From the NCBI RefSeq assembly GCF_006874645.1, contig NZ_CP030082.1, forward strand, positions 2,666,001 through 2,730,000: DNA of 64,000 nt, read 5' to 3'. The notes below the pieces were generated by a model. It saw nothing but the letters and a program-made list of their open reading frames with translations, made no database searches and was not told the DNA's origin. This document shows positions 12,092 through 47,014 of the stretch, in pieces (the stretch's first letter is position 1; each line of letters starts with the position of its first letter). Origin of the DNA: Bdellovibrio sp. ZAP7. GTDB taxonomy: Bacteria; Bdellovibrionota; Bdellovibrionia; Bdellovibrionales; Bdellovibrionaceae. A program made the translations under genes and the position numbers.

Positions 12092-13006
12092 ATGATTATT
12101 CTTATTCTCCTTGCCTTGAGCTTGAGCAATTGCACGCAGGACACCATGCTGAATAATGCATCAAGCCTTTCTCAGAGTTATCAACAAAAGTGTCTTACAT
12201 TCATTCCGCGCGAGTCAGAAAATTACTCTGCACTGACCTCAATAGTGTGTGGCGAAAAACTCAGCGATCAGAACCTGAAACAGAATTTAGTGAAGACATC
12301 ACTGATTCATATATTCATCATTTCAGGTTCTCATCTTCTTTTGCTCGACGAACTTTTCGCAGTTTTAAGAATTCCATTTTTTGTAAGATTCTTAATTTTG
12401 AGCTTTTACTCCCTAATAGTTGGCTGGCAACCACCCGCCGTAAGAGCCTTGTCTGCATTGGGTTTGCGAGGACTTTTTAAATCTCGTGGTTGGAAATTTC
12501 CACCGGATTTGATGACGATGATTGCGGGATGTTTCACACTCGCGCTTTTTCCTGCGTGGTGGAACTCACCATCACTGCTGATGAGTTGGTGTGCCAGTTT
12601 GGCACTGGCATGGACATCGTTGCTAAAAATAAGAAATGTTTTTCATCGCTTGTTGTTCAATCAATGCGCAGTTTTTATTTTCATGTGTGCTCCACTGTGG
12701 GGCTTGAGTTCACTTCATCCCCTCGCACTGCTTTACAATTTGTTATTAGGGCCGGTGGTGTCTTACATTTTACTACCGCTAGGGTTTGCAAGCGTCATCA
12801 TTCCATCGGTAGTGGCGGCCTTTGATTTTGTGATGACGGGCTTTGCACAAATCCTGAAATGGGCCTCTGAACCTGTTCCCATGGTCTCTGCGAAACAGAT
12901 TTCAATATCCACATTATGGTTTTGGATTTTTGCGTGGCACATCTTTTTTCACTTTTTTCGATTGCGACTTCGCCAAGGAAAGGATGCTGCGTGGAGTGGG
13001 TGTTAA
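12092..13006 (+). CDS. ComEC/Rec2 competence membrane domain, stand-alone
   Basis: 304 residues, hydrophobic with about seven membrane helices. The stretch SLIHIFIISGSHLLLL corresponds to the ComEC competence-domain hallmark (HLLAISGLHV in relatives), followed by WQPPAVRAL, matching the PPxxRA motif. ComEC forms the inner-membrane channel for single-stranded DNA in transformation. Canonical ComEC is about 700 residues with an N-terminal OB domain, this channel domain and a C-terminal metallo-beta-lactamase domain. Here the OB part is missing and the third part is a separate gene starting 16 bases before this one ends. The N-terminus has a lipoprotein-like SNC, of uncertain meaning. Confidence 0.85.
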   Translation: MIILILLALSLSNCTQDTMLNNASSLSQSYQQKCLTFIPRESENYSALTSIVCGEKLSDQNLKQNLVKTSLIHIFIISGSHLLLLDELFAVLRIPFFVRFLILSFYSLIVGWQPPAVRALSALGLRGLFKSRGWKFPPDLMTMIAGCFTLALFPAWWNSPSLLMSWCASLALAWTSLLKIRNVFHRLLFNQCAVFIFMCAPLWGLSSLHPLALLYNLLLGPVVSYILLPLGFASVIIPSVVAAFDFVMTGFAQILKWASEPVPMVSAKQISISTLWFWIFAWHIFFHFFRLRLRQGKDAAWSGC

Positions 13007-13749
13007 GATTTTCACTGTTCTCGATTTTGTTGATAACTTTCAGCGCCACACCCGTGGCAAATAAATCAGTGTTCTCATATCTCGTGATATGGAACGTCGG
13101 CCAAGGACAATGGGCGACGTCCATTGACGACACCACCTGCCGACATTTTGACGTGGGCGGCGAACGATTTCCCTGGGGAAAAATCGCCAAGCTTTGCCGC
13201 GATAAAAGTAACAAAATTTACCTCAGCCACTGGGATTGGGATCATATCGGTGCGTTAGCGAAATGGCCTTTATCGTGGCAGAGTTGTCTTGCGATGAGGC
13301 CGCAGGGAAGTTCGTCGCCGGGAAAAATGCGTCTGCTCGAAAAGTTTTCTGATTGCGCCGAGACGTTGGATGTTCCGCATTGGCAAGGTTTGACGGTTTT
13401 TAAAAAATCAAAAAAGTCTGCAGGTAAAGTCGATACAAATGCTGCAAGCCAGATTACGTCTTACAAAGGTTTTTTATTCCCCGGAGATTCACCGGTAAAA
13501 ACCGAAACTCAATGGCAGAACTTACCTTGGGTGCGTGAAACGCGCGTGTTGCTACTGGGGCATCATGGCTCGCGCACCAGCACATCGGAAGAGCTTTTAA
13601 CTCACTTGCCACATCTTAGTATGGCCGTCGCATCAGCCCGCTATGCCCGTTACAAACATCCCCATGCAGAAGTGATTTATCGACTTAAAAAGCACCGCAT
13701 TCCCCTGCTTAAAACAGAGGATTGGGGGAATATTTGGTTTGAATATTAG
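12991..13749 (+). CDS. Metallo-beta-lactamase-fold protein, ComEC C-terminal part
   Basis: 252 residues from GTG 12991, preceded by AAGGAAAGG at proper spacing; the frame is open back to an ATG at 12916. A signal-anchor-like segment (VLRFSLFSILLITFSATPVA) is followed by the beta-lactamase fold of ComEC: WNVGQGQWATS, FDVGG, the metal-site signature LSHWDWDHIGAL (HxDxDH form), FPGDSP and LLLGHHGSRTSTSEELL, then SARYARYKHPHAEV. In ComEC this domain is proposed to degrade or process the non-transported DNA strand. It overlaps the channel gene, so the two products are presumably made together and act as a split ComEC. Confidence 0.85.
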   Translation: MEWVLRFSLFSILLITFSATPVANKSVFSYLVIWNVGQGQWATSIDDTTCRHFDVGGERFPWGKIAKLCRDKSNKIYLSHWDWDHIGALAKWPLSWQSCLAMRPQGSSSPGKMRLLEKFSDCAETLDVPHWQGLTVFKKSKKSAGKVDTNAASQITSYKGFLFPGDSPVKTETQWQNLPWVRETRVLLLGHHGSRTSTSEELLTHLPHLSMAVASARYARYKHPHAEVIYRLKKHRIPLLKTEDWGNIWFEY

Positions 13750-14348: not shown

Positions 14349-14380
14349 AAAAAAAGGCCCCGTTTCGGCGGAGGCCTTTT
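14349..14380 (-). terminator. Terminator of the aerobactin-type operon
   Basis: Minus strand GGCCTCCG ccgaaa CGGGGCC followed by a run of seven Ts, 25 bases after the iutA stop. A second hairpin, TTTATTTCCG/CGGAAATAAA (14311-14320 and 14342-14351), lies next to it. Confidence 0.8.
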
Positions 14381-14404: not shown

Positions 14405-16486
14405 TTACCAGAAGTATGTTACGCGCACGCCGAATTCGCGTGGCGAATTCACTTGGTAAACTTTTGTTCCATAGTAGGCGTTACTTGCATCGTAGGTTAC
14501 ATATTTTTGGTCAAGGACGTTACGGATATAGAACTCAGAGTTCAATTTCCATTGCGCCATTAAGTACGCCAAAGACGTATCCAAGTACCATTGCTCCGGA
14601 GCCGACTTGGTATTCGCAGCATCGCCATAGCTTGAAGACAAGTAGCGAAGTGTATTATCCCAGTTCCAGGCATCTGTCGGCTTAAAGGTATAGTTCACAC
14701 TTCCTGTCCATGGGCTGGCGAAGGGGAACTCGTTACCGTCATAGTTTTGATTTAAAGGACCTTTAAAGTCGATGAAGCGTGTATGGTTGTAACCCACACC
14801 TGCCGTCAGCGCATTGTGGGCATTGATATTGTAAGTCGCTTCCAGTTCCGCACCGTACAATTCAGAGCTTGCCGCATTCACGATCGCTGAATTGTAGGGA
14901 TTGTTCGCTGCGTATTGTACCAGAACCTGTTGATCCACCCAGTGAGTGTAAAACACGTTCGCAGCCACTTTCAGCTGATCTTGAACACGCTTATAGCTTA
15001 ATTCAAAGTTATGAGTCGTTTCTGGGTCGTACTCGGCCACGGTTGACGTCCAACGATTCACGCTGACTCCACCCGTGCGATACCCTTGAGTATAGGAAAT
15101 ACCGTAAGAACTAATACCTTCCGTCAGGATGTAACCGATTTTAGGAAGCAGGATGCCGCCCTCTTCGTTTCCGCTGGCAGTTCTTGTTGAACCGTAAACG
15201 ATGTAAGAATCGTATTTGTTCTGCATATACTCATAGCGAAGACCCAAGTTCAACGCATGATTTTCATTGAACTTATAAAGCATGGAATCAAAGATCGCAT
15301 AGGTGTTTTGGTACTTTTCAGTTTTTTGACGAACTGGGATAGGACCTGGAGCTAACACGTTAAAGTTGTAGTCATCTTTGATAACGTAGTCATGATAGTG
15401 CAAACCCAAAACGTTCTTTACTTTTTCGCTTTGGTATTTGTACAGGTTTTCAACGCTGAGATAGCTGTCCTTATGATCTTCGTAACGAGTTCCCGCAGTC
15501 GCAGCCGAAGTTCCATCCGCGTCAGCAGTCGCATCTTGGTCACTTTGCGAGTAAGCCAGAATCGTTTCATTCGATGAGTTCTCGTTGATTTTTTTAGTAT
15601 AACGAAGGCTGGTTTGTTGATTGTTCGTCAATGCACGGTTGTCGACATCTTCATAAACTTTATAATCAAAAGGATCTGTCGATTGCGAATATGTACCGCC
15701 AGCTTCATTGTTGAGAATTTTGATGTTCCAACGAATCTCGTCGAACGCATTCAATTTATAAACCAAATCCTGGGAGATATAATTCTTATCTTGACGTCCC
15801 CAACGATCATTGCCCGTCGTTACGTTTTCGATGAAGCCATCATAACGTTCTACGTTCACAGAAGTACGACCAAAAAGGTCTTCGCTTAGTTTATAGTTGG
15901 ACACCACGCCGACTTCTTTGTAACCGTAGCTGCCAAAACCGGCTTTAGCTGCGCCCTCGGTCGCATCCGTGGCTTTACGGTGGAACAAAAGGATGTTACC
16001 CGCGAGCGAGTTGATACCTTGAGTTGTGGATTGAGCACCCCGATAGATTTCTACGTGATCCAAATCCCAGAAATCAAAAGCGCCAGCAGAGATGGCGAGA
16101 TCCGTTTGGAATACATCGTCTACCAGGATCGATGCCAAGTTGTCTTTTTGATACCCTGTCACGCCGATATTGTTAATACCGCGAAGGCTGAAAGTATTGT
16201 CGTTCTTATTCACTTGAACGTTGGGAAGACCATTGATGGACTTCAAGGAGTCGGCCTTAACCCCTTTATCGTAGGACTCAGCTTGGATGACAGTAATGGA
16301 CTCTGTACTTTCCAAGTAGGATTTGTCTTCTTTATTCCCCAAAATCTGCACTTGTTGCAGTTTGTAGGTTTCTGCGGGTTTTTCCGTTGTCGCCGTCTCT
16401 GGTGTCGTCTGTGGTGTTTGTTCCGCCGTCTGGGCATGCGCGAGGCTTGCCTGGATCGTGAACAATACTGCGATGAAAATTCTCAT
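14405..16486 (-). CDS. iutA: TonB-dependent ferric siderophore receptor (IutA-like)
   Basis: 693 residues. Signal peptide (MRIFIAVLFTIQASLAHA), then a Thr/Pro/Glu linker, a plug domain from about 45 to 165 (SITVIQAESYDKG, VNKNDNTFSLRGI, VDDVFQTD, VEIYRGAQSTTQG) and a 22-strand barrel ending in an aromatic residue (FGVRVTYFW). It would import the ferric siderophore through the outer membrane with energy from TonB. Being last in an iucABCD-type operon, in the place of iutA, it most likely transports ferric aerobactin; substrate cannot be proven from sequence. E. coli IutA is somewhat longer (about 730). Confidence 0.85.
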   Translation of the reverse strand: MRIFIAVLFTIQASLAHAQTAEQTPQTTPETATTEKPAETYKLQQVQILGNKEDKSYLESTESITVIQAESYDKGVKADSLKSINGLPNVQVNKNDNTFSLRGINNIGVTGYQKDNLASILVDDVFQTDLAISAGAFDFWDLDHVEIYRGAQSTTQGINSLAGNILLFHRKATDATEGAAKAGFGSYGYKEVGVVSNYKLSEDLFGRTSVNVERYDGFIENVTTGNDRWGRQDKNYISQDLVYKLNAFDEIRWNIKILNNEAGGTYSQSTDPFDYKVYEDVDNRALTNNQQTSLRYTKKINENSSNETILAYSQSDQDATADADGTSAATAGTRYEDHKDSYLSVENLYKYQSEKVKNVLGLHYHDYVIKDDYNFNVLAPGPIPVRQKTEKYQNTYAIFDSMLYKFNENHALNLGLRYEYMQNKYDSYIVYGSTRTASGNEEGGILLPKIGYILTEGISSYGISYTQGYRTGGVSVNRWTSTVAEYDPETTHNFELSYKRVQDQLKVAANVFYTHWVDQQVLVQYAANNPYNSAIVNAASSELYGAELEATYNINAHNALTAGVGYNHTRFIDFKGPLNQNYDGNEFPFASPWTGSVNYTFKPTDAWNWDNTLRYLSSSYGDAANTKSAPEQWYLDTSLAYLMAQWKLNSEFYIRNVLDQKYVTYDASNAYYGTKVYQVNSPREFGVRVTYFW

Positions 16487-16510
16487 TACTGTCTCTTCCT
16501 TCTTTCCCTT

Positions 16511-17788
16511 TTATAATCCTTTATAACTAACAAAATTAGGAACCATTTTAGATGTTTTGTAGTGCTCTTTACCCAGCATGTCGTTCAAGATGGTCGCCGA
16601 TCTCCAGGCCATCAAGCTCGTTTGCGGTTCAGAGATTCCATGCCCATGACGGCTAAAGTTCATGGCATAGATCTTATTCTGCGAAGGGCCCTTCCATTTC
16701 ACAGAAAAGTTCTTCTGCAAAATAAAGCGGCCGGTGTTATCAAAATCAATCATGTGTTGAATCGGCTCGATGATGTGCGGGATGCGAGTTCTAAAGCCCG
16801 TGCTTAGAATCACGATATCAGCATGGTGCGTTTCCGTTTTGTTCGAAAACGTGCTGCTGACAGTCAGTTTATAGCCACTCCCGGCCTCTTCCAGGCGATC
16901 CATGCAACGCGAAGGCAAGATCTCTACGATCGCTTCACTTTGATGAACGTGTCGAAGTTGGTAGATGTCATTGTAAAGAGCTTCCAAATACTCTGGTGTA
17001 TTTCCATCAGAAGCCATCTTTTGATGACGAACGATAGGATCTTTAAGGTTTTGATCCAAGCCAAAGAATTCTTCTACGTAATAGGGTGTGAAGTATTCGT
17101 TAACGAACGGAGAGTTATCTAGTGGCTCCAGGTTCGCGCGGCTGGAAATCAGACGAGTGCTGGATGGCTCGCCCCATTTGCCTTTAAAGCAGTTGCGGAA
17201 GATTTCAATCCCTGTCTGACCGCCACCAATCACCACAACGTTCTTACCAGTGACATCCAATGTTTTAAGATAAGGAGATTTTGCGTGAAATACTTTAGGA
17301 CCGATGAAGTCTTTGGCAAAATCAGGAACGTTGGGAGTTAGACCCGTTCCGATACAGATATTGTCGGATTTAGCGATGTTGTTACCAGAACGAACCAGGA
17401 ACTGACCGTCTTTGAAGTTTACTTCGTCGATTTGCGCGCCAAAGTTCAAACGGTGGTTCAATTGTTTGCTGACCCATTGGCAGTACATTTCAAATTCACG
17501 GCGAGTCACCACTTGGCGATTCGTATTCATGAAAGAGTAATACAAACCATTTTGAACCAGATAGTTCATGAAGCTATACGGGTTTGTAGGGTCCGCTCCC
17601 ATCACCAGGTCTTTTAAGAAAGAGGTTTGCATTTCAGAATCTGCAAACATGATTTCTGAGTGCCAGTCGAAACTTGGTTTACCGTCAAAGAAAGCACTGT
17701 GGATCCCCGCAGTTTTATCTGCCAAGGCCGCAAGGCTTAGATTGAAGACGCCGATACCAATTCCTATAAGATTGTATTTTTGTTCCAT
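16511..17788 (-). CDS. iucD: L-lysine N6-monooxygenase (IucD family)
   Basis: 425 residues, the family length. FAD motif near the N-terminus (IGIGIGVFNLSLAALA), conserved FFDGKPSFDWHSEIMF and MQTSFLKDLV, NADPH motif VVVIGGGQTGIEIF, and the C-terminal LSTGFRTRIP. IucD hydroxylates the side-chain amino group of lysine (PvdA does the same for ornithine) as the first step of hydroxamate siderophore synthesis. Lysine is preferred here because the operon has the full iucABCD set and no diamine or ornithine enzymes. The ATG lies one base after the iucC stop, so translation is probably coupled. Confidence 0.9.
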   Translation of the reverse strand: MEQKYNLIGIGIGVFNLSLAALADKTAGIHSAFFDGKPSFDWHSEIMFADSEMQTSFLKDLVMGADPTNPYSFMNYLVQNGLYYSFMNTNRQVVTRREFEMYCQWVSKQLNHRLNFGAQIDEVNFKDGQFLVRSGNNIAKSDNICIGTGLTPNVPDFAKDFIGPKVFHAKSPYLKTLDVTGKNVVVIGGGQTGIEIFRNCFKGKWGEPSSTRLISSRANLEPLDNSPFVNEYFTPYYVEEFFGLDQNLKDPIVRHQKMASDGNTPEYLEALYNDIYQLRHVHQSEAIVEILPSRCMDRLEEAGSGYKLTVSSTFSNKTETHHADIVILSTGFRTRIPHIIEPIQHMIDFDNTGRFILQKNFSVKWKGPSQNKIYAMNFSRHGHGISEPQTSLMAWRSATILNDMLGKEHYKTSKMVPNFVSYKGL

Positions 17789-17789
17789 C

Positions 17790-19568
17790 TTACAGTGCTC
17801 CTTTATTCAATCCCAACACAATGGGATTCATAAGTTCGTCACCGACCATGGGGACTGGGCGTTCGTGGGAGTCGGCATAGCCGATCTTGAAACGCACCTT
17901 ATTTACCAGCACACGAGGCATTTTTTCCGCCAGAAGGTTGACGCTGTCATCCACATTCAGGTTTTTCCCCGTAGTTGAAAGATAATCGCGAAGGACTTCG
18001 CCCAGAATTCCGTAAAATTCGTATTCTGAGTATCCATCGCACTCCTGCAAAACTTCCGAGATAAAACGTAGAACCGTGACAAAATGTCCCGTGAACAAAT
18101 CGTGAATCAAATAATTGCGAGGAAGCTGCAACAAATGGCTCGCCAAGTTAGCAGACTCCTCGACCAGAACAGAACCCTTCGCCACGCGAAGATCACCCTG
18201 GAAGTCTTTAATGATCAACCCCACCGGTGCGTGATCTTTAAGTTTCAAAACAATGTTTTGCCCATGGGAAACCAGGCCAATGCCGTATTTCAGTTGCAGG
18301 TGGTACAGCGGCACCACGACGACTTCGAAATACTGGCGAAGCCATTGTGACATGGTCAGCCCCGAAGCCTTTACGTAAGCACCCAACAATGATTTTCCAT
18401 CGGTATCTTTATGGAAGAAACTGCCAGTCAAAACTGAAGTTTCTCCTACACCCGCTTTGGATTCTGCGCACTCTCTCCAGATGGCGCCCAAGTATTCGTG
18501 ATAACGATATGGAGCCAAAGCCAATTGCCTATAGATCGGATGTTGAAAGCTTACGCCCGCTTTTTCACTTAAGACTTGAACGTTTTTAAGAACGTCGTCT
18601 TTCGCGCAGATGTCGTTCATCTTTTGCGACAGCTCACCACCCACTGGAATGTATTTCGCGGCAATACCACGGATGCTGGAAGTATTTAGGATCGTAACTG
18701 GAAGTTTGATATCCCAAAGACCTGGACGAGTGACGTTTGAAAGCGTACGAATCGAAATTTGCGGTTGATATTGGTCACCGAAAACTCCCAAAGCTTTGAT
18801 CACGCCCGTGGAAAGTTCCGCGGCAAATTGAACCTGAATAAAACGATCCCACTGCCATGGGTGAACAGGAACGAAAACGTGCTCTGCCTTGTTGATTTCA
18901 AGTTCCGTAAGCTCTTGATTGAAACGTTTTAGTTCCGCTTCATCCATGGACTGCGCCAAAATAACGTCGGTGTTTACTCCTGGCATTTGGGCTGCCAAGG
19001 CCGAGTTTTTACGAACTGCCAACCACATCAAACGAATCAAAGGCTGACTTTCAGGTGCAAACTCTGCCAGATCCCCTTCACTCCACGTGATGCGGCCTTT
19101 ATTCAGCAAAAGTTTGGGATGGCCATTGAGGATTGATTGAATTTTTAGGCCTGACCATTTCGTCATTTCAGTTGAAGTTTGTTCTGCCTGTTTTTGTTCA
19201 ATGCGCAGGTCCGAAAACAATGTGTTGTGCATTTCTTCTAAGAAGTTCCCCAGAATAATGTCATCCATGCCAGTTTCTTTTTGGCAGTCGATAAAGAATT
19301 GGCCTGCGCTTTTGACCGGCATTTTAATGCCGTCAACGACGCGAACGATGGAATCAGCTTCGACTTTGATATCGGTCCAAATCCCCTGCCACCCCTGACA
19401 GTGGTATTCGATACCACTTTGCAATGCGAACACGAAATTTTGGCCGTCCGTCGTGGCTGGCTTCAGAATTTGCTCATAGCTAAGCTCCTGAAGGCTTTTC
19501 GCCACCAGGTTCTGATTGACCCGCACCCATGCAGATCCAGAATGAAGTGTGTTCGCTTTTAAATTCAC
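17790..19568 (-). CDS. iucC: IucA/IucC-type siderophore synthetase (IucC position)
   Basis: 592 residues from GTG 19568, whose GTGA overlaps the iucB stop and follows AGGGA seven bases upstream; the frame is open to an ATG at 19604 inside iucB. NIS synthetase features: NGHPKLLLNKGR, the ATP-site segment VPVHPWQWDRF, LPVTILNTSSIRGI, HEYLGAIWRE, and HGQNIVLKLKDHAPVGLIIKDFQGDLR in the C-terminal catalytic part. IucC joins the second N6-acetyl-N6-hydroxylysine to the citryl intermediate with ATP, completing aerobactin. Assignment as C rather than A rests on gene order. Confidence 0.85.
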   Translation of the reverse strand: MNLKANTLHSGSAWVRVNQNLVAKSLQELSYEQILKPATTDGQNFVFALQSGIEYHCQGWQGIWTDIKVEADSIVRVVDGIKMPVKSAGQFFIDCQKETGMDDIILGNFLEEMHNTLFSDLRIEQKQAEQTSTEMTKWSGLKIQSILNGHPKLLLNKGRITWSEGDLAEFAPESQPLIRLMWLAVRKNSALAAQMPGVNTDVILAQSMDEAELKRFNQELTELEINKAEHVFVPVHPWQWDRFIQVQFAAELSTGVIKALGVFGDQYQPQISIRTLSNVTRPGLWDIKLPVTILNTSSIRGIAAKYIPVGGELSQKMNDICAKDDVLKNVQVLSEKAGVSFQHPIYRQLALAPYRYHEYLGAIWRECAESKAGVGETSVLTGSFFHKDTDGKSLLGAYVKASGLTMSQWLRQYFEVVVVPLYHLQLKYGIGLVSHGQNIVLKLKDHAPVGLIIKDFQGDLRVAKGSVLVEESANLASHLLQLPRNYLIHDLFTGHFVTVLRFISEVLQECDGYSEYEFYGILGEVLRDYLSTTGKNLNVDDSVNLLAEKMPRVLVNKVRFKIGYADSHERPVPMVGDELMNPIVLGLNKGAL

Positions 19569-20494
19569 AGGAAGTTCCCTAAAAAGAACTTTTCGCGGCG
19601 GCATTCAAGAAGGGCTGCACGTTTATGAGGGAAATCAAATTCCTTCACTTTTCTCCATGCGGGGAAAGTCTCAACATAACGAATGATACGTTGATTGTCT
19701 GAACGTGGTTCGGCCATGATTTTACGCGTGCGTGGTTCTTCCAGAAACAAGTAATGGCTGGCAGACTTTAGAATCGCGTCAGTATTTTTAAAGCCCAGGT
19801 ATTCCATGTTTCCGATCAACAAATGGAAACCACGGTCGAAGGCTTCAGAGTCATAGTAAGGACCCAAACGGTCTTCAAGAGTCCAATACATCTCGAAATA
19901 ACCAACAGGAACACCGTCAAACTCCACGAAGGTTGGAATGGAATGCAGGTCCACCAAACCTTTTTCCAGATATTCTTTAAGTTCTGCTTCTGGTTTTGCT
20001 AGTTCCCAAAATTCGTTCACATAGGGTTGATTGTGCCAGAAATGAAAAGTTTTTAGATCACGTTCGACATCGACCACACGGAAACTAATCGTCTTACCAA
20101 TGCTTGGCACAAAGCGCGAATAAAGCAAATCCCCTGGACGTGGTTGTGGGCGAATGGGATGGTGAACATCGCCAGAATACATCCACTGCTCAGGTTTCAA
20201 AGTTTGCGTCCCATACGTGCACCACAATGCTGGGTTTTGATAAAAGTCGGCACGATGCGTGGCTGTTTGATTTACTGAAATCGTTTTAAGTTCCGGCTTA
20301 TTCACAAACAGATGCTCCATGGCAACCAATGAAGATGCCGGAGAAGTTTCTTTTGCGCTCAGCTGAATTTTCTCGCCACTGTCTTCGATATTAAACTTTA
20401 CCGTGACTTCAGGTCCTGAAACGGTCAGAACTCCGTCAGCTAGTTCTGCGGTAAAGTTCTTCTTTTCTTGAACATGCAAGTAAGTTTGTTTCAT
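19565..20494 (-). CDS. iucB: N6-hydroxylysine acetyltransferase (IucB family)
   Basis: 309 residues (E. coli IucB about 315). An N-terminal domain of about 130 residues precedes a GNAT-fold acyltransferase typical of siderophore enzymes: FHFWHNQPYVNEFWE, FVEFDGVPVGYFEMYW, DRGFHLLIGN, and ending RTRKIMAEPRSDNQRIIRYVE. IucB transfers acetyl from acetyl-CoA to N6-hydroxylysine, making the hydroxamate. It sits between two NIS synthetase genes exactly as in iucABCD. Eight bases separate it from iucA; it overlaps iucC by four bases. Confidence 0.88.
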   Translation of the reverse strand: MKQTYLHVQEKKNFTAELADGVLTVSGPEVTVKFNIEDSGEKIQLSAKETSPASSLVAMEHLFVNKPELKTISVNQTATHRADFYQNPALWCTYGTQTLKPEQWMYSGDVHHPIRPQPRPGDLLYSRFVPSIGKTISFRVVDVERDLKTFHFWHNQPYVNEFWELAKPEAELKEYLEKGLVDLHSIPTFVEFDGVPVGYFEMYWTLEDRLGPYYDSEAFDRGFHLLIGNMEYLGFKNTDAILKSASHYLFLEEPRTRKIMAEPRSDNQRIIRYVETFPAWRKVKEFDFPHKRAALLECRREKFFLGNFL

Positions 20495-20502
20495 AAATCG
20501 TC

Positions 20503-22281
20503 CTAAGCCTCTGCTGTTATTGCCGCAGCAATGGGATTTTTAATCAGATTGTAAATAGCCAGTGGATTGGCCGTCGTGTTTTCGTTTAAATTTTGCAGAC
20601 TGCAAGTAAAGTTGCCTTTGTGCCAGATTTCTGCCTGATCCAAAAGATAGTTCAAACAAGACAAGTCCTGCGGATTCGATGCACGAATAGCCAACAAAAA
20701 GTTACGCAAATCCATTACCAACTCATCTTCACTCACCCAACCGTCTGCAGCGATCGCGGCAATAACGTTAAAGGTTGAATTGATCATAAGGTAATACGCA
20801 AACAGGATATTGCCCTTATCATCCAGAATATTTCCGTTTTCCATTTTTAGGCTGGAAACATCTTTGCCGTACAATGAGAAGCCAAAGTGGCTGTAACCCG
20901 TCCCTTGGCAATCACGGAAGTAAGCTTTTTCTGGAAAATTAGCTTTCAGGCTTAAAATCAGATTTTGCTGATGAGCACCCAAAAGAATTCCGTAATTGGC
21001 TTGAGCATGCACTAAGGGCTTAACTGCCACTTCAAGATAACGCGCAAACCATTGCTGAGAAATCTCACGCAATGAACGATGAGTTTTTTCAGTTTCCTTA
21101 CGAATGGCTTTTTGAATCAGGTTTTCACCACCCAAAGGGTTATCCTGAGCCAAAGTCGAAAGCACGACCGCTTCCTCATTGTTATTTTCCGTAAATGGAT
21201 TTTCACGGCAGACCACAATAGATTCCGTCAAAATTTCGCCAGCCGCATCTTTTAGTGCCATAAATGCAGGTTCAAAGACGATGTGGAATTGCGGATGTTT
21301 GCGAGAAAACTCCTGAGCTTTCGAAGTCATAAAAACATCATAAACCTGCAGACCGCGAACCACTTCGACCGGAGTCAGGTGACGAATGGAATTCGTCAAC
21401 CGCAGGGTTAAAGAAAACTTCATCATATACGGAGAATGCGCCCCATAAATCGAACGCAATGAAGTCGTCGGATACCACTTTTTGTCGGCTTGACCTAAAT
21501 CAATCAGATCACCCTTTTGCAAATAGCTTTGTACCACCGGATTTTTCACCAGGTGCTGTTTTTGCCATGGATGCACTGGGAACGGAATAAAACCTGCTTT
21601 TAACTTAGCGGATGCCTGTTCTGAATTTTCAAAGTCATTTAAGAAAGCATCCAAAGTCCATTGTTCAACGTGGAACTTGTCGGCTTTTTCATTGGCGACC
21701 ACTTCCGGTTTTGCCAGGAACCAGTTCAAAGCGAAACTTCCTGCCATTTCTGGAGAGTACTGGCGATAGTCGGCCTCATCGAAGCCTTCACGCATTTTCG
21801 GATACGGATGAAAGTTATGCCCGATCATCAAACCTTGCTCCGCCTGTTGGAAGTTCATCGGCTCAGAGTAAATGCTTTGCAAGTCCTCTTGACGGTGCCC
21901 CAATGCCAGTTCAATGTTTTCCATGCTGTTTTTTAAGCGTTCCAGAAAGACCGCATCATTGCCCAAGCTGTTCGGAAAAATGGTCGTTAAATGTTTCGCC
22001 AACTCTGAAGCGACCGTCAAAAAGTCAGCCTCTATCAGAACGCTGTCTTTTTGAATGAAGAATAAAGAATGATATTGATGACGCCCCATCAAAGAACTGC
22101 GCGTAAGTGGCAAGTACATGGCCGCGCCATCCTTCAGATTCACCACCAAGGCTTGCTTACAACCTGTCTTAACAGAAATGGCTGCCGGCGCCTCTATAAT
22201 GGAATAATCAAACCACTCGCGGAAAAGAGAGTTAAAGAAACAAGAAGCTGAATGACGAAGAGAAAGTTCGTGCAAATTCAT
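20503..22281 (-). CDS. iucA: IucA/IucC-type siderophore synthetase (IucA position)
   Basis: 592 residues. NIS synthetase motifs: LMIGHNFHPYPKMREGF near 155, FPVHPWQKQHL near 235, MMKFSLTLRLTNSIRHL, and GILLGAHQQNLILSLKANFPEKAYFRDCQGTGYS with the catalytic-region residues. IucA condenses the first N6-acetyl-N6-hydroxylysine with a citrate carboxyl using ATP. It is a distant paralogue of the 17790-19568 product and is the first synthetase transcribed. Its ATG follows the stop of the MFS gene (TAATATG). Confidence 0.87.
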   Translation of the reverse strand: MNLHELSLRHSASCFFNSLFREWFDYSIIEAPAAISVKTGCKQALVVNLKDGAAMYLPLTRSSLMGRHQYHSLFFIQKDSVLIEADFLTVASELAKHLTTIFPNSLGNDAVFLERLKNSMENIELALGHRQEDLQSIYSEPMNFQQAEQGLMIGHNFHPYPKMREGFDEADYRQYSPEMAGSFALNWFLAKPEVVANEKADKFHVEQWTLDAFLNDFENSEQASAKLKAGFIPFPVHPWQKQHLVKNPVVQSYLQKGDLIDLGQADKKWYPTTSLRSIYGAHSPYMMKFSLTLRLTNSIRHLTPVEVVRGLQVYDVFMTSKAQEFSRKHPQFHIVFEPAFMALKDAAGEILTESIVVCRENPFTENNNEEAVVLSTLAQDNPLGGENLIQKAIRKETEKTHRSLREISQQWFARYLEVAVKPLVHAQANYGILLGAHQQNLILSLKANFPEKAYFRDCQGTGYSHFGFSLYGKDVSSLKMENGNILDDKGNILFAYYLMINSTFNVIAAIAADGWVSEDELVMDLRNFLLAIRASNPQDLSCLNYLLDQAEIWHKGNFTCSLQNLNENTTANPLAIYNLIKNPIAAAITAEA

Positions 22282-22282
22282 A

Positions 22283-23485
22283 TTATGCCTCCCCAGCTAC
22301 GACGGTGCGCTGGCGATAAAGAATGACAATGCTGACCATCATCAGAACAACCAATGACACCAACAGTGTTTCTAAGGAGAATATTTTAATTTTCAAAGTA
22401 AAGGCTGCTAAGGCTCCACCCACGGCATAACCGATCGTGTTCGCAGCACTGACGATGCCAGCTTTACGCCCCAAACCCACGTGCTCAGGATCCACCGCCG
22501 TCATCAACGTTAAGTAACATGGTGGAACCAAAGCAATCCCGACCGATAAAAACACAATCGCTGTCCAAAGTTGCGATTCCAGGTTCATCACTTGCAATAG
22601 AATGGAACCCGCAAGGAGCGTCAACGCCCCCAGAACCAAAGCGCCCTGCCAAGGATTTTTAAAGAACATACGTCCTAAGAATTGAGTGGCGACGGCAATA
22701 ATAGCACTCACCAACAATAATTTGGCCATCAAGATACCAGAGTCCTGACTGGATAAAGAAAAACTGTGTTTCAGTATCACTGCCAACGATGAATTCAAAA
22801 TACCGATAAAGCTTGTGAACAAGACGGCTAACAAGAAAACCCAGCGCATGCGATTAAATGCCAAGCCCCACGCAGAGACTCCGGATTCTTTCGCGACAGC
22901 AGATTTCATGTGCGGCGCTGGCAAACGAAGAGCCCACACATTCAACGCCAGCAATGCCATAATCCAGAACAAGAATCCTACCAAAACCTGATCCATGTTT
23001 TGGCCACCGCTGACCAAAACATAAATCGGCCCTAAGGAGCGACCAATGTTCAAGCTCATGGAGTTTGAGATCATCGCCTTCATCGCAGATTTGGATTCAG
23101 ACAAATCCACTTGCAAAGCTTGCGCAACCGGCACCACAGCAGAAGCTAACAAACCATAAATCACGCGGCTGATAATCAATACCACCAGCACCGCAACGGG
23201 ACCGATTTTTTCACCCCATTGAGTCAGTGCCCACAACATCAGAGTGGAAATACCCAGCCCCGCGAGGCCCGCCAGCAAGATCGGTTGACGACCGACCTTA
23301 TCACTTTTCGCAGCCCAATAAGGAGAAGACCACAAAAACAAGAACGACCCGGCACTGAATGTCGCCACGACCGAGGACAGACTGACGTGCATCGTTTCTG
23401 CCAAATATGGCAAAAGCGTGAACAGCAGAATCTGCAGCGCACTGAACGTGATGGTATTAAGGTTCGCCAGGATCGCCAAACTCAC
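22283..23485 (-). CDS. MFS transporter (ShiF-like, putative siderophore exporter)
   Basis: 400 residues with about twelve membrane helices and the family loop motif between helices 2 and 3 (AAKSDKVGRQPILLAG) plus a central loop near 190-205. In enterobacterial aerobactin loci a major facilitator protein, ShiF, precedes iucA; this one has the same place and size, so export of the siderophore is a reasonable inference. The GTG start (23485) overlaps the PepSY-gene stop as GTGA. Confidence 0.8.
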   Translation of the reverse strand: MSLAILANLNTITFSALQILLFTLLPYLAETMHVSLSSVVATFSAGSFLFLWSSPYWAAKSDKVGRQPILLAGLAGLGISTLMLWALTQWGEKIGPVAVLVVLIISRVIYGLLASAVVPVAQALQVDLSESKSAMKAMISNSMSLNIGRSLGPIYVLVSGGQNMDQVLVGFLFWIMALLALNVWALRLPAPHMKSAVAKESGVSAWGLAFNRMRWVFLLAVLFTSFIGILNSSLAVILKHSFSLSSQDSGILMAKLLLVSAIIAVATQFLGRMFFKNPWQGALVLGALTLLAGSILLQVMNLESQLWTAIVFLSVGIALVPPCYLTLMTAVDPEHVGLGRKAGIVSAANTIGYAVGGALAAFTLKIKIFSLETLLVSLVVLMMVSIVILYRQRTVVAGEA

Positions 23486-24804
23486 GATTTGCCCCTTTTT
23501 CCACGCAAGACAACAGCTCCCGTCAAAATCAATGGAATCAAAAGAATGTAACCTGACGCCATGGCAAATGTGCCACCCAAAATAAAGGCTCCAATAATCA
23601 TGACCGCGGTCACGACAAATAAAACCAAAGGAATTGCAAAACGGTTTTTAAACAAAAGACTATCCGACAGCTTGCGAGTTTCCATGGAAACCCCTTTGAC
23701 CTGAGTGGCTTTTTTACGTTTGTACCAAATCACCAAACCAAAGATCGGCAGCAACAACGAGAAGATCGAAAAGCCCAACCAGACGATTTTCAAAAATAGC
23801 CCGCCGTAATTTCCAAAGTGCAAAGGCTCCGATGCCAAAGTGATCTTCATATACCAAGGGAGCTCACGCACTTCACCTTGAGTTCCCGTTGCGGCATCCA
23901 CCACCACCAACTGAGTCATGCGCTCCGTTTGTGGCGTGTTCCCCACCATCACCACCAAGAAATGATTCGGCGGAGAGAACTGAGTATCCGGCATGGCGAT
24001 GTAATCAACTTTTGCGTTCGGCAAAGCTTGTCCAGATGTTTTAATCACTTGATCCAAAACAGAAGCATTGTGGGCATGATCATTGTCACCGTGAATATCT
24101 TTGTACTGCTGATTGATTTCTTTCAGTTCCTGATATTGGTAAACTTTAATCAACGTCGAACTGATTCCCAAAAAGAAGCCCGTCGCACCAATAATCAAAC
24201 CCCAAGCAAAGACACCGATACCGATGTAACGATGCATGTCTGAAAACCAATGACGAGGCGATTTGATGCGAACTTCACCGAAAGCGACTTTCTTGGCGAA
24301 GTTTCCATAAATGAAAAATCCCGAAAGCATCACAAAGAAATACAGCAAACCAATAAAACCCACATACATTTTCCCGTAAGAACCCAAGAAGAACTCACGG
24401 TGCAGTTTTAGCATCCAGTCCATGAAAGAACTTTTGCCGGCTTCCGCGTTCAACTCTGCACCGGTGCGCGAATCAAACATGAGCTTGCGGGCCCCACGGA
24501 ACATTTTGGAATCGTTCATCCCCAGGCGCACATTTACGATGTTTTCGTGTTCGTCGTCTTTGAAAACAGCAAGAGGTCTTTCGCCGGGAAATTTCTTAAG
24601 AACATCCGACAACAAAGTCGAATACGACATTGAAGTCTGTTCCGCAGGCACAGCTACCGTCTCATGAACGGAACCTTCAACTTCTTCTTTGAAAAGTAAA
24701 ATCGAACCACTGATGCTAAGAAAAATGAAATGCACGGCCACGAAGAGACCGAGATAAATATGGGCTTTGTAAAAGAATCGGAAGGCTTTTGTTTTTAATG
24801 TCAT
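23482..24804 (-). CDS. PepSY-type membrane protein, iron-uptake associated
   Basis: 440 residues from ATG 24804 (an in-frame GTG lies at 24828; neither has a clear ribosome binding site). Layout of the PepSY-associated TM family (PiuB-like): helix 1 (HIYLGLFVAVHFIFLSISGSILLF), a periplasmic PepSY domain (about 45-125), helices near 140-175 and 195-225, a second periplasmic domain, a helix near 350-370, plus two extra C-terminal helices. Conserved histidines occur in KAHIYLG, KLHREFF, DMHRYIG and EPLHFGN. Relatives are thought to reduce or process ferric siderophores in the inner membrane. First gene of the seven-gene operon; no convincing Fur box was found in 24805-24966. Confidence 0.8.
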   Translation of the reverse strand: MTLKTKAFRFFYKAHIYLGLFVAVHFIFLSISGSILLFKEEVEGSVHETVAVPAEQTSMSYSTLLSDVLKKFPGERPLAVFKDDEHENIVNVRLGMNDSKMFRGARKLMFDSRTGAELNAEAGKSSFMDWMLKLHREFFLGSYGKMYVGFIGLLYFFVMLSGFFIYGNFAKKVAFGEVRIKSPRHWFSDMHRYIGIGVFAWGLIIGATGFFLGISSTLIKVYQYQELKEINQQYKDIHGDNDHAHNASVLDQVIKTSGQALPNAKVDYIAMPDTQFSPPNHFLVVMVGNTPQTERMTQLVVVDAATGTQGEVRELPWYMKITLASEPLHFGNYGGLFLKIVWLGFSIFSLLLPIFGLVIWYKRKKATQVKGVSMETRKLSDSLLFKNRFAIPLVLFVVTAVMIIGAFILGGTFAMASGYILLIPLILTGAVVLRGKRGKS

Positions 24805-24966
24805 ACGTATGGGTGAAATAGGTAACACACAGAGTGAAAAACCACAAAAATTTGACCTTTGTGAGGAGTTGTTGAAAACCTATTGGGAAGATATTTTCTG
24901 AGTGTCAAAATACCTGACAGCGCGACATAAATTGCCAAACATTTGTGAACTTGTTTTACTTTAAAA

Positions 24967-25608
24967 ATGAAGAAACAGAAGGCTATTCAGGCCATCGAAC
25001 AAGAAGGAATTTTGCTGGTGTACCCAATTAAAAACAGTCCGGAACCGGATTCGTTATGGGCCCACCTGTGGCCTCGATCCAAGATGGTTTGGGAGTGGGA
25101 TGCTGATGCCGATCACAAGGTTTCTGACCTGTGGCTTTTGAAAGAGGAACTTTCTCGCTCTGGCAAAGTCGTCTATGCAAAATGGTACCAGAATCGTGCG
25201 ACGTTTTTCTCTCAAGAAGCTTTTGTGAATATGCTGGCTTTTCAACGCAGCGAGGCCCCCCTTTCTCCGAACAGCCAAGTCATCTTGGAGGCCCTGGAGA
25301 TGGACTCCCCCTTATCGACGAAGCAGCTGAAGGAAATCGCCGATCTGCAGGGCCGAGATATGGAATCCACCTACAACCGCGCGATGAAAACCTTGTGGCA
25401 ACGCCTTTTGATTGTGGCTTTTGGTGAAGTTGAGGACTCGAGTTTTCCATCTACTGCGGTGGGTGCAAGCCGAACACTGTTTGAGCCGCTTTGGGAGCAG
25501 TCTTTGGCGATTTCCCCTGAAAAAGCAGAGGCTTACTTGATCAAAAAGTTAGGCGTCGAAAACAAATTTTGGAAGTTCGCCAAGAAAATTCAAGCTACCA
25601 AAACGTAA
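24967..25608 (+). CDS. Hypothetical cytosolic protein, possible AlkZ/YcaQ-related winged helix
   Basis: 213 residues, no signal peptide or membrane segment. The N-terminal part (GILLVYPIKNSPEPDSLWAHLWP, WYQNRATFFSQEAF) and the middle part with a helix-turn-helix-like stretch (SPLSTKQLKEIADLQGRD...TYNRAMKTLWQRLLIVAFGEV) recall small proteins related to the AlkZ/YcaQ DNA glycosylases, but the catalytic QxQ or QxD pattern of that family was not located. The assignment is tentative. It is divergent from the siderophore operon, and its ATG has only a weak ribosome binding site. Confidence 0.55.
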   Translation: MKKQKAIQAIEQEGILLVYPIKNSPEPDSLWAHLWPRSKMVWEWDADADHKVSDLWLLKEELSRSGKVVYAKWYQNRATFFSQEAFVNMLAFQRSEAPLSPNSQVILEALEMDSPLSTKQLKEIADLQGRDMESTYNRAMKTLWQRLLIVAFGEVEDSSFPSTAVGASRTLFEPLWEQSLAISPEKAEAYLIKKLGVENKFWKFAKKIQATKT

Positions 25609-44232: not shown

Positions 44233-45741
44233 ATGAAAAAACACACAGTGCGTGTTTATCCATCTAAAGAAAAATTGGATCGTAAAGATCAATTGGCTTG
44301 GAAAATTGCAGAGATCGCTTCTGACAATGCTCCAATCAAAGCTGATGTTGTCGATATGGTTATCAACCGTATCATCGACAATGCTTCTGTTGCTATCGCT
44401 GCAGCAAACCGTCGTCCAGTAGCTTCTGCTCGTGCTATGGCTATCGCCCATCCACGCAATGGTGGTGCAACTGTATTCGGTATGCCAAACGATCAAAAAT
44501 TTGACTGTGAATGGGCTGCATGGGCGAACGGTACTGCTGTTCGTGAATTGGATTTCCATGACACTTACTTGGCTGCTGACTACTCTCACCCTGGTGACAA
44601 CATCCCTGCTATTTTGGCGGTTGCTCAACAAATGGGTAAAAACGGTAAAGAACTTTTGAAAGGTATCGTAACTGGTTACGAAGTTCACGTAGACCTAGTG
44701 AAAGCTATCTGCCTTCACATGCACAAAAAAGATCATATCGCTCACTTGTGCCCCGCTCAAGCGGCTGGTATCGGTACTTTGTTGTCTCTTCCAACTGAGA
44801 CTATTTTCCAAGCAGTTCAACAAGCGGTTCACGTGTCTTTCACGACTCGTCAATCTCGTAAAGGTGAAATCTCTTCTTGGAAAGCTTACGCTCCAGCACA
44901 CGCTGGTAAACTTGCTGTTGAAGCAGTTGACCGTGTAATGCGTGGCGAAGGCGCACCGTCTCCAATTTACGAAGGTGAAGATTCTGTTATTGCTTACATG
45001 CTTGATGGCAAAAACGGTAAATACGAAGTTCCACTTCCAGAAGTTGGCGAAGAAAAACGCGCGATCCTTGAGACTTACACTAAAGAACACTCTGCAGAGT
45101 ACCAATCTCAAGCATTGATCGATCTAGCTCGCAAAATGAAGCCAATGATCAAAAACTTCGACGATATCAAAGATATCGTGATTCACACTTCTCACCACAC
45201 TCACTACGTAATCGGTACAGGTGCGAACGATCCACAAAAAATGGATCCAAATGCTTCTCGCGAAACACTTGATCACTCGATCATGTACATCTTCGCCGTG
45301 GCTCTTCAAGATGGCACTTGGCACCACGTTAATTCGTACGCTCCAGAGCGCGCGAAACGTGCTGACACTGTGGCATTGTGGCACAAAATTTCTACTGTTG
45401 AAGATAAACAGTGGACAGCTTGGTACCATGAGACTGATCCAGATAAAAAACGCTTCGGTGGCCGTGTAGAAATCACGATGAAAGATGGTTCTAAAATCGT
45501 TGATGAATTGGGCGTAGCTGATGCGCATCCAGCGGGTGCTCGTCCATTCAAACGTGCGGACTACATCCGTAAGTTTGATACTTTGACTGAAGGAATCATC
45601 ACTAAAGCTGAGCGTGATCGCTTCATCGGTCTTTGTGAGAATTTGGAAAACTTGACTGCTGAACAGGTTCAACAGTTGAATGTTCAGATTCCTATCGACA
45701 AGCTTGTTAACAATAAGCGCGATAATAAAGGTATCTTCTAG
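44233..45741 (+). CDS. prpD: 2-methylcitrate dehydratase (MmgE/PrpD family)
   Basis: 502 residues, close to E. coli PrpD (483). Family features include the N-terminal [61 protein letters not shown], and [36 protein letters not shown]. The enzyme dehydrates 2-methylcitrate to 2-methyl-cis-aconitate in propionyl-CoA breakdown. Codons are strongly biased to GCT, CGT, GGT and GTT, as in highly expressed genes. prpB follows after element C; no prpC lies in the window. Confidence 0.93.
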
Positions 45742-45759
45742 TCTTCGGACGAAGACCGT

Positions 45760-45892
45760 CAGCGACAAGGGCTGGCCTTAGGGTTTTTACGAGACCCGGG
45801 CCTCCTGCCCTTGCCGGTGTGCATCTCCGATGCAGGGCCGTCCAGGCCCCGCGGAGGTCTCTACAAAACCCTAAGGCCAGCCCTTGGCGCTG
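45760..45892 (+). repeat. Long inverted-repeat element C
   Basis: Arms of 28 bases with one mismatch (45760-45787 and 45865-45892; left arm CAGCGACAAGGGCTGGCC...). Inside: GAGACC/GGTCTC, a CCTCC/GGAGG pair, a perfect TGCATC tcc GATGCA hairpin and a GGGCCG tcca GGCCC hairpin. Same architecture as elements A and B, but neither core nor arms are the same sequence apart from GACCTCCG at the edge. It lies between prpD and prpB. Confidence 0.75.
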
Positions 45893-46114
45893 CCTGTTTT
45901 GTTGAAATAGACGATCACTTTTTTAACGACTTTTATGCTGAGACATTTTTTCGTTTGGAAGTGGTATTGTTAGTGTTGATCTGGTTCATGGGCCTTCTTT
46001 TCAAATTTCTTTAAGCCTTGAATCTTAGATCTTTGATTTTATTTTTTAATTCCGTTGCCCTGGCTCACTTAGGATTTCGTTGAGATGGCCAGAGGTTTTT
46101 TTGGAGGTTCTTGT
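45893..46114. other. prpB leader region, no gene seen
   Basis: T-rich stretch with no convincing reading frame; together with element C the prpD-prpB gap is 373 bases. It presumably holds a promoter for prpB. Confidence 0.4.
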
Positions 46115-47014
46115 ATGTTGTTTCCTGAAATTACTCCTGCTCAGAAGCGTAAGAATTTTCGCGATGCTTTGAAGACTGGTAAGCTTTTGCAGATGCCGGG
46201 GTCTTGGTCACCGCTTGCTTCTATGGCTATTGAGAAGGCTGGGTTTGATGGGGTTTATATTTCTGGGTCTGTTCTTTCGAATGACCTTGGATATCCTGAC
46301 ATTGGTTTGACTTCACTGACTGAAGTGGCTCAACGTGGTCGTCAGATTGCTCGTACCACTTCTTTGCCTACTATTATCGATATCGATACGGGTTTTGGTG
46401 AGCCTATGAGTGCTACTCGTACGGTTCAAGAGATGATTGAGATGGGGCTTGCTGGTTGTCATATTGAAGACCAGGTAAATCCTAAGCGTTGTGGTCACCT
46501 TGATGGGAAGTCTTTGGTTGGTCGTGATGAGGCTGCTCGTAAGGTTGCGGCGGCGGCTCGTGGTAAGAAATTGGACGAGAACTTTTTGTTGATTGCTCGT
46601 ACGGATGCTCGTGCTTCTGAAGGTTTAGATGCGGCGATTGATCGCGCTAAAGCTTATATCGATGCGGGTGCTGACTGTATTTTTACTGAAGCTCTTGAGA
46701 ACGAGAAAGAGTTTGAAACTTTCCGTAAGGCGGTTTCTGTTCCTTTGCTTGCGAACATGACTGAGTTCGGTAAAGGTCGCTTGTTCACTTATACTGAGCT
46801 TTCGAACTTGGGCTACAACATCGTGATCTACCCTGTGACGACTTTCCGTCTTGCGATGGGTGCGACTGTTGCGGGCTTGGCTGAAATTAAAGCTAAAGGA
46901 ACTCAAGAAGGTTTGCTTGAAAAAATGCAAACTCGTAAGGATCTTTATGCTTTGACTCGTTATGATGAGTACAACAGCTTTGACCAGAATATCTTTAATT
47001 TTACTTTGAAGTAG
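46115..47014 (+). CDS. prpB: 2-methylisocitrate lyase
   Basis: 299 residues from ATG 46115, eight bases after GGAGG (an in-frame ATG at 46085 is discounted). PEP mutase/isocitrate lyase barrel: ISGSVLSNDLGYPDIGLTS, PTIIDIDTGFGEP (metal-binding Asp pair), the active-site loop HIEDQVNPKRCGHLDGK with the catalytic Cys, and LLIARTDARASEGLDAAIDRAKAY. It splits 2-methylisocitrate into pyruvate and succinate, closing the methylcitrate cycle. Codons end in T even more often than in prpD. Ends at an intrinsic terminator. Confidence 0.94.
   Translation: MLFPEITPAQKRKNFRDALKTGKLLQMPGSWSPLASMAIEKAGFDGVYISGSVLSNDLGYPDIGLTSLTEVAQRGRQIARTTSLPTIIDIDTGFGEPMSATRTVQEMIEMGLAGCHIEDQVNPKRCGHLDGKSLVGRDEAARKVAAAARGKKLDENFLLIARTDARASEGLDAAIDRAKAYIDAGADCIFTEALENEKEFETFRKAVSVPLLANMTEFGKGRLFTYTELSNLGYNIVIYPVTTFRLAMGATVAGLAEIKAKGTQEGLLEKMQTRKDLYALTRYDEYNSFDQNIFNFTLK

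Follow-up and report, generated by a model that had tools for sequence, protein, structure and literature searches.

An aerobactin-type operon of Bdellovibrio in which the uptake half of the system appears to be replaced

The window analysed here is a stretch of 64,000 nucleotides from the genome of Bdellovibrio sp. ZAP7. Positions 14405-24804 of its minus strand carry seven leftward open reading frames, and neighbouring genes are joined by 4-nt overlaps or by gaps of at most 24 nt, just as the original prediction had described them (overlaps or gaps under 25 bases). A Pfam search matched the expected domain in every one of the seven frames. The gene order is that of a PepSY_TM gene (putative reductase), a ShiF-like MFS gene, iucA, iucB, iucC, iucD and a TonB receptor gene, and the features of the locus are as follows.

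24872..24889, plus strand: candidate operator upstream of the operon, a direct repeat TTGAAAA-CCTA-TTGGGAA with an 11-bp period
23482..24804, minus strand: PepSY_TM protein, FoxB-like, 440 aa (PF03929, 1e-44), putative periplasmic ferric-siderophore reductase
22283..23485, minus strand: MFS transporter, ShiF-like, 400 aa (PF07690, MFS_1), putative siderophore exporter
20503..22281, minus strand: iucA-type NIS synthetase, 592 aa, with IucA_IucC and FhuF domains
19565..20494, minus strand: iucB-type N-acyltransferase, 309 aa (PF13523, Acetyltransf_8, 1.5e-44)
17790..19568, minus strand: iucC-type NIS synthetase, 592 aa from GTG 19568, with IucA_IucC and FhuF domains
16511..17788, minus strand: iucD-type lysine N6-hydroxylase, 425 aa (PF13434, Lys_Orn_oxgnase, 1e-100)
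14405..16486, minus strand: TonB-dependent receptor, 693 aa, plug and barrel (PF00593/PF07715)
14350..14373, minus strand: terminator-like hairpin with a T run, 3' of the receptor gene

The PepSY gene starts at ATG 24804 (a GTG at 24828 could serve instead), and the MFS gene overlaps it as GTGA. For iucC, the ATG at 19604 was set aside in favour of GTG 19568 as the most likely start, because the latter forms a GTGA overlap with the iucB stop, has AGGGA upstream and agrees with the stop found in another carrier (G011), where TGA stands at codon 4 of the longer iucC frame. This TGA precedes the likely true start, so that a broken iucC in G011 was ruled out. The single terminator expected at the operon end is represented by the hairpin with a T run at 14373-14350, but such matches in the region are not commoner than chance, and the call rests on position. 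The identical seven-gene order was found in all 12 operon-carrying Bdellovibrio genomes, and the arrangement is therefore far beyond chance.

All four synthetic proteins are full length and follow the iucABCD order, so that type A and type C NIS synthetases, an N-acyltransferase and a lysine N6-hydroxylase come together in one operon. Their identity to the E. coli proteins is 32% for IucA, 36% for IucB, 36% for IucC and 38% for IucD. Among solved structures (PDB), IucC was best matched by the K. pneumoniae-type IucC 6cn7 (E 9e-106) and IucA by IucA 5jm7 (E 2.5e-86), nearly over the full length in both cases. In the trees that had been suggested as a check of the synthesis proteins, IucA, IucC and IucD grouped with the iuc sets of Enterobacterales, Vibrionaceae and others, and not with a non-aerobactin clade; they stood apart from the rhizobactin, acinetoferrin and haloarchaeal references, and IucC and IucD also from desferrioxamine. 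The split from the diamine-type sets is supported, yet it is based on few references, and the outgroup branches are long. Furthermore, an SDG motif occurs in IucD of 92 of 94 iuc-type loci vs. YKG in 4 of 4 diamine-type loci, and the IucD of the window bears the SDG of the lysine-type set. Reading of the open reading frames revealed no decarboxylase or diamine gene and no extra acyl-supply gene within the operon, in agreement with the original prediction that no decarboxylase or diamine gene would adjoin. Judged by the Pfam and PDB matches, the trees and the IucD motif, the iucABCD core is of the aerobactin type, and aerobactin itself would be a plausible product.

The retrieval half of the system presents a different picture. 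The last gene had been taken for iutA, and this label did not survive comparison: only 92 aa of the receptor could be aligned with E. coli IutA (E 8e-5), and whereas the IutA of both E. coli and V. mimicus matches NCBIfam NF052649 (RhtA) at 1e-228 or better, the receptor gave no match to it. Among receptors encoded beside iucD, 53 loci had the IutA type and 20 the Bdellovibrio type, with no cross-match between the two at 1e-3, and all 20 loci of the latter type belong to Bdellovibrionota by title or tree position. The null result with NF052649 and this split in types ruled out the iutA label; on these comparisons, the receptor is of a type specific to Bdellovibrionota and not IutA. The inference of aerobactin as the product therefore loses one of its supports. 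As a separate observation, marine-type clusters of Bdellovibrionota encode a secreted protein of about 300-320 aa behind iucD, in the place where the receptor stands elsewhere (L131:13028-13936; L148:6090-7010; L150:7775-8716; L157:12038-13000); most of these proteins have 'ENPTLK' in common, and two that were tested had no Pfam match.

The MFS gene is linked to iucA, and its product is 29% identical to E. coli ShiF (E 5e-16). The ORFs of the S. meliloti rhb region yielded no significant match, and on this ground an RhtX-like importer was rejected; the protein would rather export the siderophore. All 25 enterobacterial loci with a shiF-like gene have it divergent from iucA, whereas in the Bdellovibrio operon the two genes are co-directional. 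The match to the enterobacterial shiF-iucABCD-iutA arrangement that had been proposed thus holds for the iucABCD order, but neither for the receptor nor for the orientation of the MFS gene.

No match to a FecCD permease was found in the complete own genome (4.12 Mb), nor a full-length one in any of the 12 carriers, where partial weak matches occurred in G011 and G021 only; the same search was positive in 13 of 14 control genomes. Within the genus, a full FecCD is present only in G012 (G012:C1:2112295-2114095), with a strong binding-protein match adjoining, and this genome is without the iuc operon. The own genome yielded only one weak, sub-cut-off binding-protein match, and in V. mimicus ABC importer genes adjoin iucA. 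Since the genome has no FecCD, iron is probably not brought in by an importer of the FhuBCD type. FeoB, in turn, is present in the own genome and in 23 of the 24 genomes of the genus.

The PepSY gene lies inside the operon in 12 of 12 carriers, and the aligned homologues have five invariant histidines (15, 135, 191, 281, 329). Its AlphaFold model is of modest confidence (pLDDT 66) and matched, at E<=0.001, a single PDB entry, FoxB 7abw (E 4e-11). Moreover, PepSY_TM genes stand behind the receptor gene in two Bacteriovoracaceae MAGs, and an FAD siderophore-interacting protein adjoins the MFS gene in a third. These data suggest that the PepSY protein may be a FoxB-like ferric-siderophore reductase acting in the periplasm, and that periplasmic reduction would be followed by Fe(II) uptake. 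For FsrB of Bradyrhizobium, reduction in the periplasm with subsequent uptake by FeoAB is established (PMC10760861), and the same sequence has been proposed for HiuB of Caulobacter (PMC13001220). However, the PepSY reductase HiuB is dispensable for aerobactin in Caulobacter (PMC13001220), and we therefore encountered no earlier case in which a FoxB-like protein handles aerobactin. PepSY_TM proteins are reported to have copper or oxidase functions instead in some cases (PMC13038864).

A further candidate component was encountered outside the seven genes. One set of carriers (group B) has, immediately upstream of the PepSY gene, a gene whose secreted product measures about 166-179 aa and is termed S166; this arrangement recurs at three different sites, and in six MAGs of the phylum S166 relatives are encoded next to iuc genes. 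In the window's genome, the S166 gene is unlinked to the operon (G000:C1:973631-974131), and a second, diverged paralogue (27% identity) was noted at G000:C1:2297012-2297491 (L219). The protein has four invariant cysteines; searches assigned it to neither a Pfam nor an NCBIfam family, and no solved structure proved to be a convincing relative. In a genus-wide profile search, the presence of S166 coincided with that of the operon, with matches in all 12 carriers and no match in the 12 non-carriers; a tree-aware treatment reduces this to four independent comparisons, all agreeing (p 0.125), and the perfect match in 24 genomes is therefore suggestive, not proof. The AlphaFold model of S166 is confident (pLDDT 86), small and beta-rich, and its best structural neighbours are lipocalin-like barrels of periplasmic or secreted proteins, with ToxS first (top Z 7.2), then VtrC, lipocalins and an odorant-binding protein, all with Z below a standout level. 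The likeness of the model to lipocalin-like barrels may be mere common shape. We propose that S166 may serve as a periplasmic siderophore-binding protein.

The candidate operator also recurs at these genes. In group A (five genomes forming one clade), the repeat TTGAAAA-N4-TTGRGAA precedes the operon and, in a weaker form, the unlinked S166 gene; in group B it is found upstream of both the PepSY and the S166 genes. The repeat scored 237 vs. about 150 in shuffles, the former value being inflated by related sequences. Genome-wide there are just two exact sites; as the second falls within the coding region of a histidine kinase, they do not reveal a regulon. With the E. coli consensus, nothing above background resembled a Fur box upstream of the operon; the genome encodes two FUR-family proteins.

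The survey of Bdellovibrio strains that had been called for showed the operon in 12 of 24 genomes of the genus, including G006, taken as HD100 (with the group B form), and G002, taken as Tiberius. Elsewhere in the family and order, 36 genomes were searched and none had the operon, and related clusters occur in MAGs assigned to the phylum outside that set. A siderophore operon in a predator had been regarded as unexpected; this view does not fit its presence in half of the genus and related clusters across the wider phylum. In group A, the operon lies between the comEC genes and an AlkZ-related gene; the sister genomes G005 and G019 keep the same flanks with other genes between, and in group B the operon occupies three other sites, which makes four genus-wide. 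The AlkZ-related protein (window 24967-25608), divergent from the operon, is also encoded at this site in the operon-free sister genomes. ComEC is split into two overlapping ORFs (window 12092-13749), a membrane part and, by position, a hydrolase part, and the pair is conserved genus-wide.

The patchy presence at four different sites, together with the absence from the 36 other genomes of family and order, could speak for horizontal gain, which had been suggested, in the form of an enterobacterial-type aerobactin operon acquired recently. We regard such a gain as extremely unlikely. The identity of the enzymes to those of E. coli is only 32-38%, and the trees place the Bdellovibrio proteins in one clade, within Bdellovibrionota(+Nitrosomonas) for IucA and IucD and together with one pond MAG for IucC; the Bdellovibrionota(+Nitrosomonas/Variovorax) clade is separate from Enterobacterales and Vibrio. 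The operon proteins of groups A and B are about 45-63% identical, which resembles the 53-60% of two neighbouring core genes, and the G+C content of the operon matches its surroundings. A search for flanking repeats or att-like sites around the operon revealed short imperfect ones only. Because the divergence between the groups is core-like and gene and species trees agree except for one weak node, the data fit best with long residence in the genus accompanied by repeated loss and relocation, or with early spread within the genus. It is likely that the phylum received or passed on the genes in an old transfer, and that they moved as a block between sites inside the genus.

Taken together, the results make it probable that the operon serves to make, export and retrieve an aerobactin-type siderophore via a non-IutA receptor, FoxB-like reduction and FeoB. 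IucD would hydroxylate L-lysine, IucB would acylate the hydroxylated lysine (with acetyl, if the product is true aerobactin), and IucA and IucC would couple two acylated units to citrate. The ShiF-like MFS protein would send the product out, and the ferric siderophore would re-enter the periplasm through the non-IutA TonB receptor. There, the FoxB-like PepSY protein would reduce Fe(III) at the inner membrane, FeoB would import Fe(II), and S166, the secreted lipocalin-like protein encoded apart from the operon, may act as a periplasmic binder of the siderophore. The system thus appears to be a variant of the aerobactin system in which the synthesis core is conserved and the uptake half, i.e., the usual receptor and membrane importer, is apparently replaced by a different receptor and a reductase. 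Only tentatively would we extend this to Bdellovibrionota as a whole, which may possess a self-contained aerobactin-type pathway with an exchanged uptake half comprising an own receptor family, a dedicated FoxB-like periplasmic reductase and S166 siderophore binders, such that the siderophore stays outside the cytoplasm and is reusable.

The product could instead be a relative of aerobactin, either acylated (ochrobactin-like), cinnamoyl (nannochelin-like) or built with another amino-acid unit, and recognised as such by the different receptor. The different receptor type throughout the phylum, the only 36% identity of IucB to its E. coli counterpart and a clade separate from the Enterobacterales and Vibrionaceae sets all agree with this; nevertheless, four full-length synthetic proteins in the iucABCD order, an IucD of the lysine-type group and an operon devoid of an extra acyl-supply or diamine gene make such a product rather unlikely. 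Another view concerns the route of iron. MFS importers of siderophores such as RhtX (rhizobactin) exist, and the lack of FecCD means that some other route is needed, so the MFS protein or an unrelated permease might import the intact ferric siderophore into the cytoplasm while the PepSY protein has another role. This is improbable, given the similarity of the MFS protein to ShiF and not to rhizobactin-region ORFs, the fixed position of the PepSY gene in the operon of every carrier, and the other PepSY types found beside iuc in L126 and L128. Finally, Bdellovibrio is a predatory genus and iron is available inside prey, so the genes might be kept mainly to take prey iron or to harm prey, and not for ordinary scavenging. 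The sequence offers no pointer to such a role, and Nitrosomonas and further bacteria with no known predatory habit have related clusters as well; we consider it very unlikely. Synthesis, export and retrieval through the non-IutA receptor, the reductase and FeoB remains the preferred reading.

The Bdellovibrio operon shares with the Enterobacterales aerobactin operon (pColV type) all four synthesis genes and their order, as well as a ShiF-like MFS gene and a TonB receptor gene behind iucD; it differs in the non-IutA receptor, the co-directional MFS gene, the PepSY gene in front, the lack of an FhuBCD-type permease in the genome and the 32-38% identity of the four enzymes. In Vibrio, aerobactin clusters such as that of V. 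mimicus likewise combine iucABCD with a receptor and a ShiF-like MFS gene, but have an IutA-type receptor and, beside iucA, an ABC importer (ATPase, binding protein, fused FecCD). The reductases FoxB, HiuB and FsrB resemble the PepSY protein as PepSY_TM or FoxB-family membrane proteins with a FeoB route, and FoxB and HiuB also as having a TonB receptor in the operon; however, they serve foreign siderophores, whereas the Bdellovibrio gene sits in a synthesis operon. The rhizobactin 1021 and acinetoferrin clusters follow the same citrate hydroxamate NIS logic with two IucA/IucC synthetases, but have YKG-type hydroxylases and fall outside the Bdellovibrio clade. These two clusters need diaminopropane genes.

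If the proposed pathway is true, the model predator HD100, which bears the group B form and in which genes are routinely deleted, would be expected to produce a siderophore itself. In the literature searched, with most subscription journals outside its scope, we found no report of siderophore production by HD100, and on siderophores in Bdellovibrio in general only receptors were mentioned. The data further suggest that synthesis and retrieval of a given siderophore may be heritable as separate modules; they provide a candidate periplasmic-release route for aerobactin that would be independent of FhuBCD, and nominate a new protein family, S166, as tied to the aerobactin-type operon.

Two other observations were made along the way. 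A 418-aa protein with an apparent signal peptide matches IucA_IucC (2e-11) and FhuF (2e-8) at G000:C1:2129352-2129741 (L003:946-2202); it thus resembles an NIS synthetase, seems to be secreted and has no linkage to the operon. In the window, PrpD-like and PrpB-like ORFs (2-methylcitrate cycle), recognised by eye, lie side by side at 44233-47014, and in the 4 kb after them the G+C content falls to about 40%.
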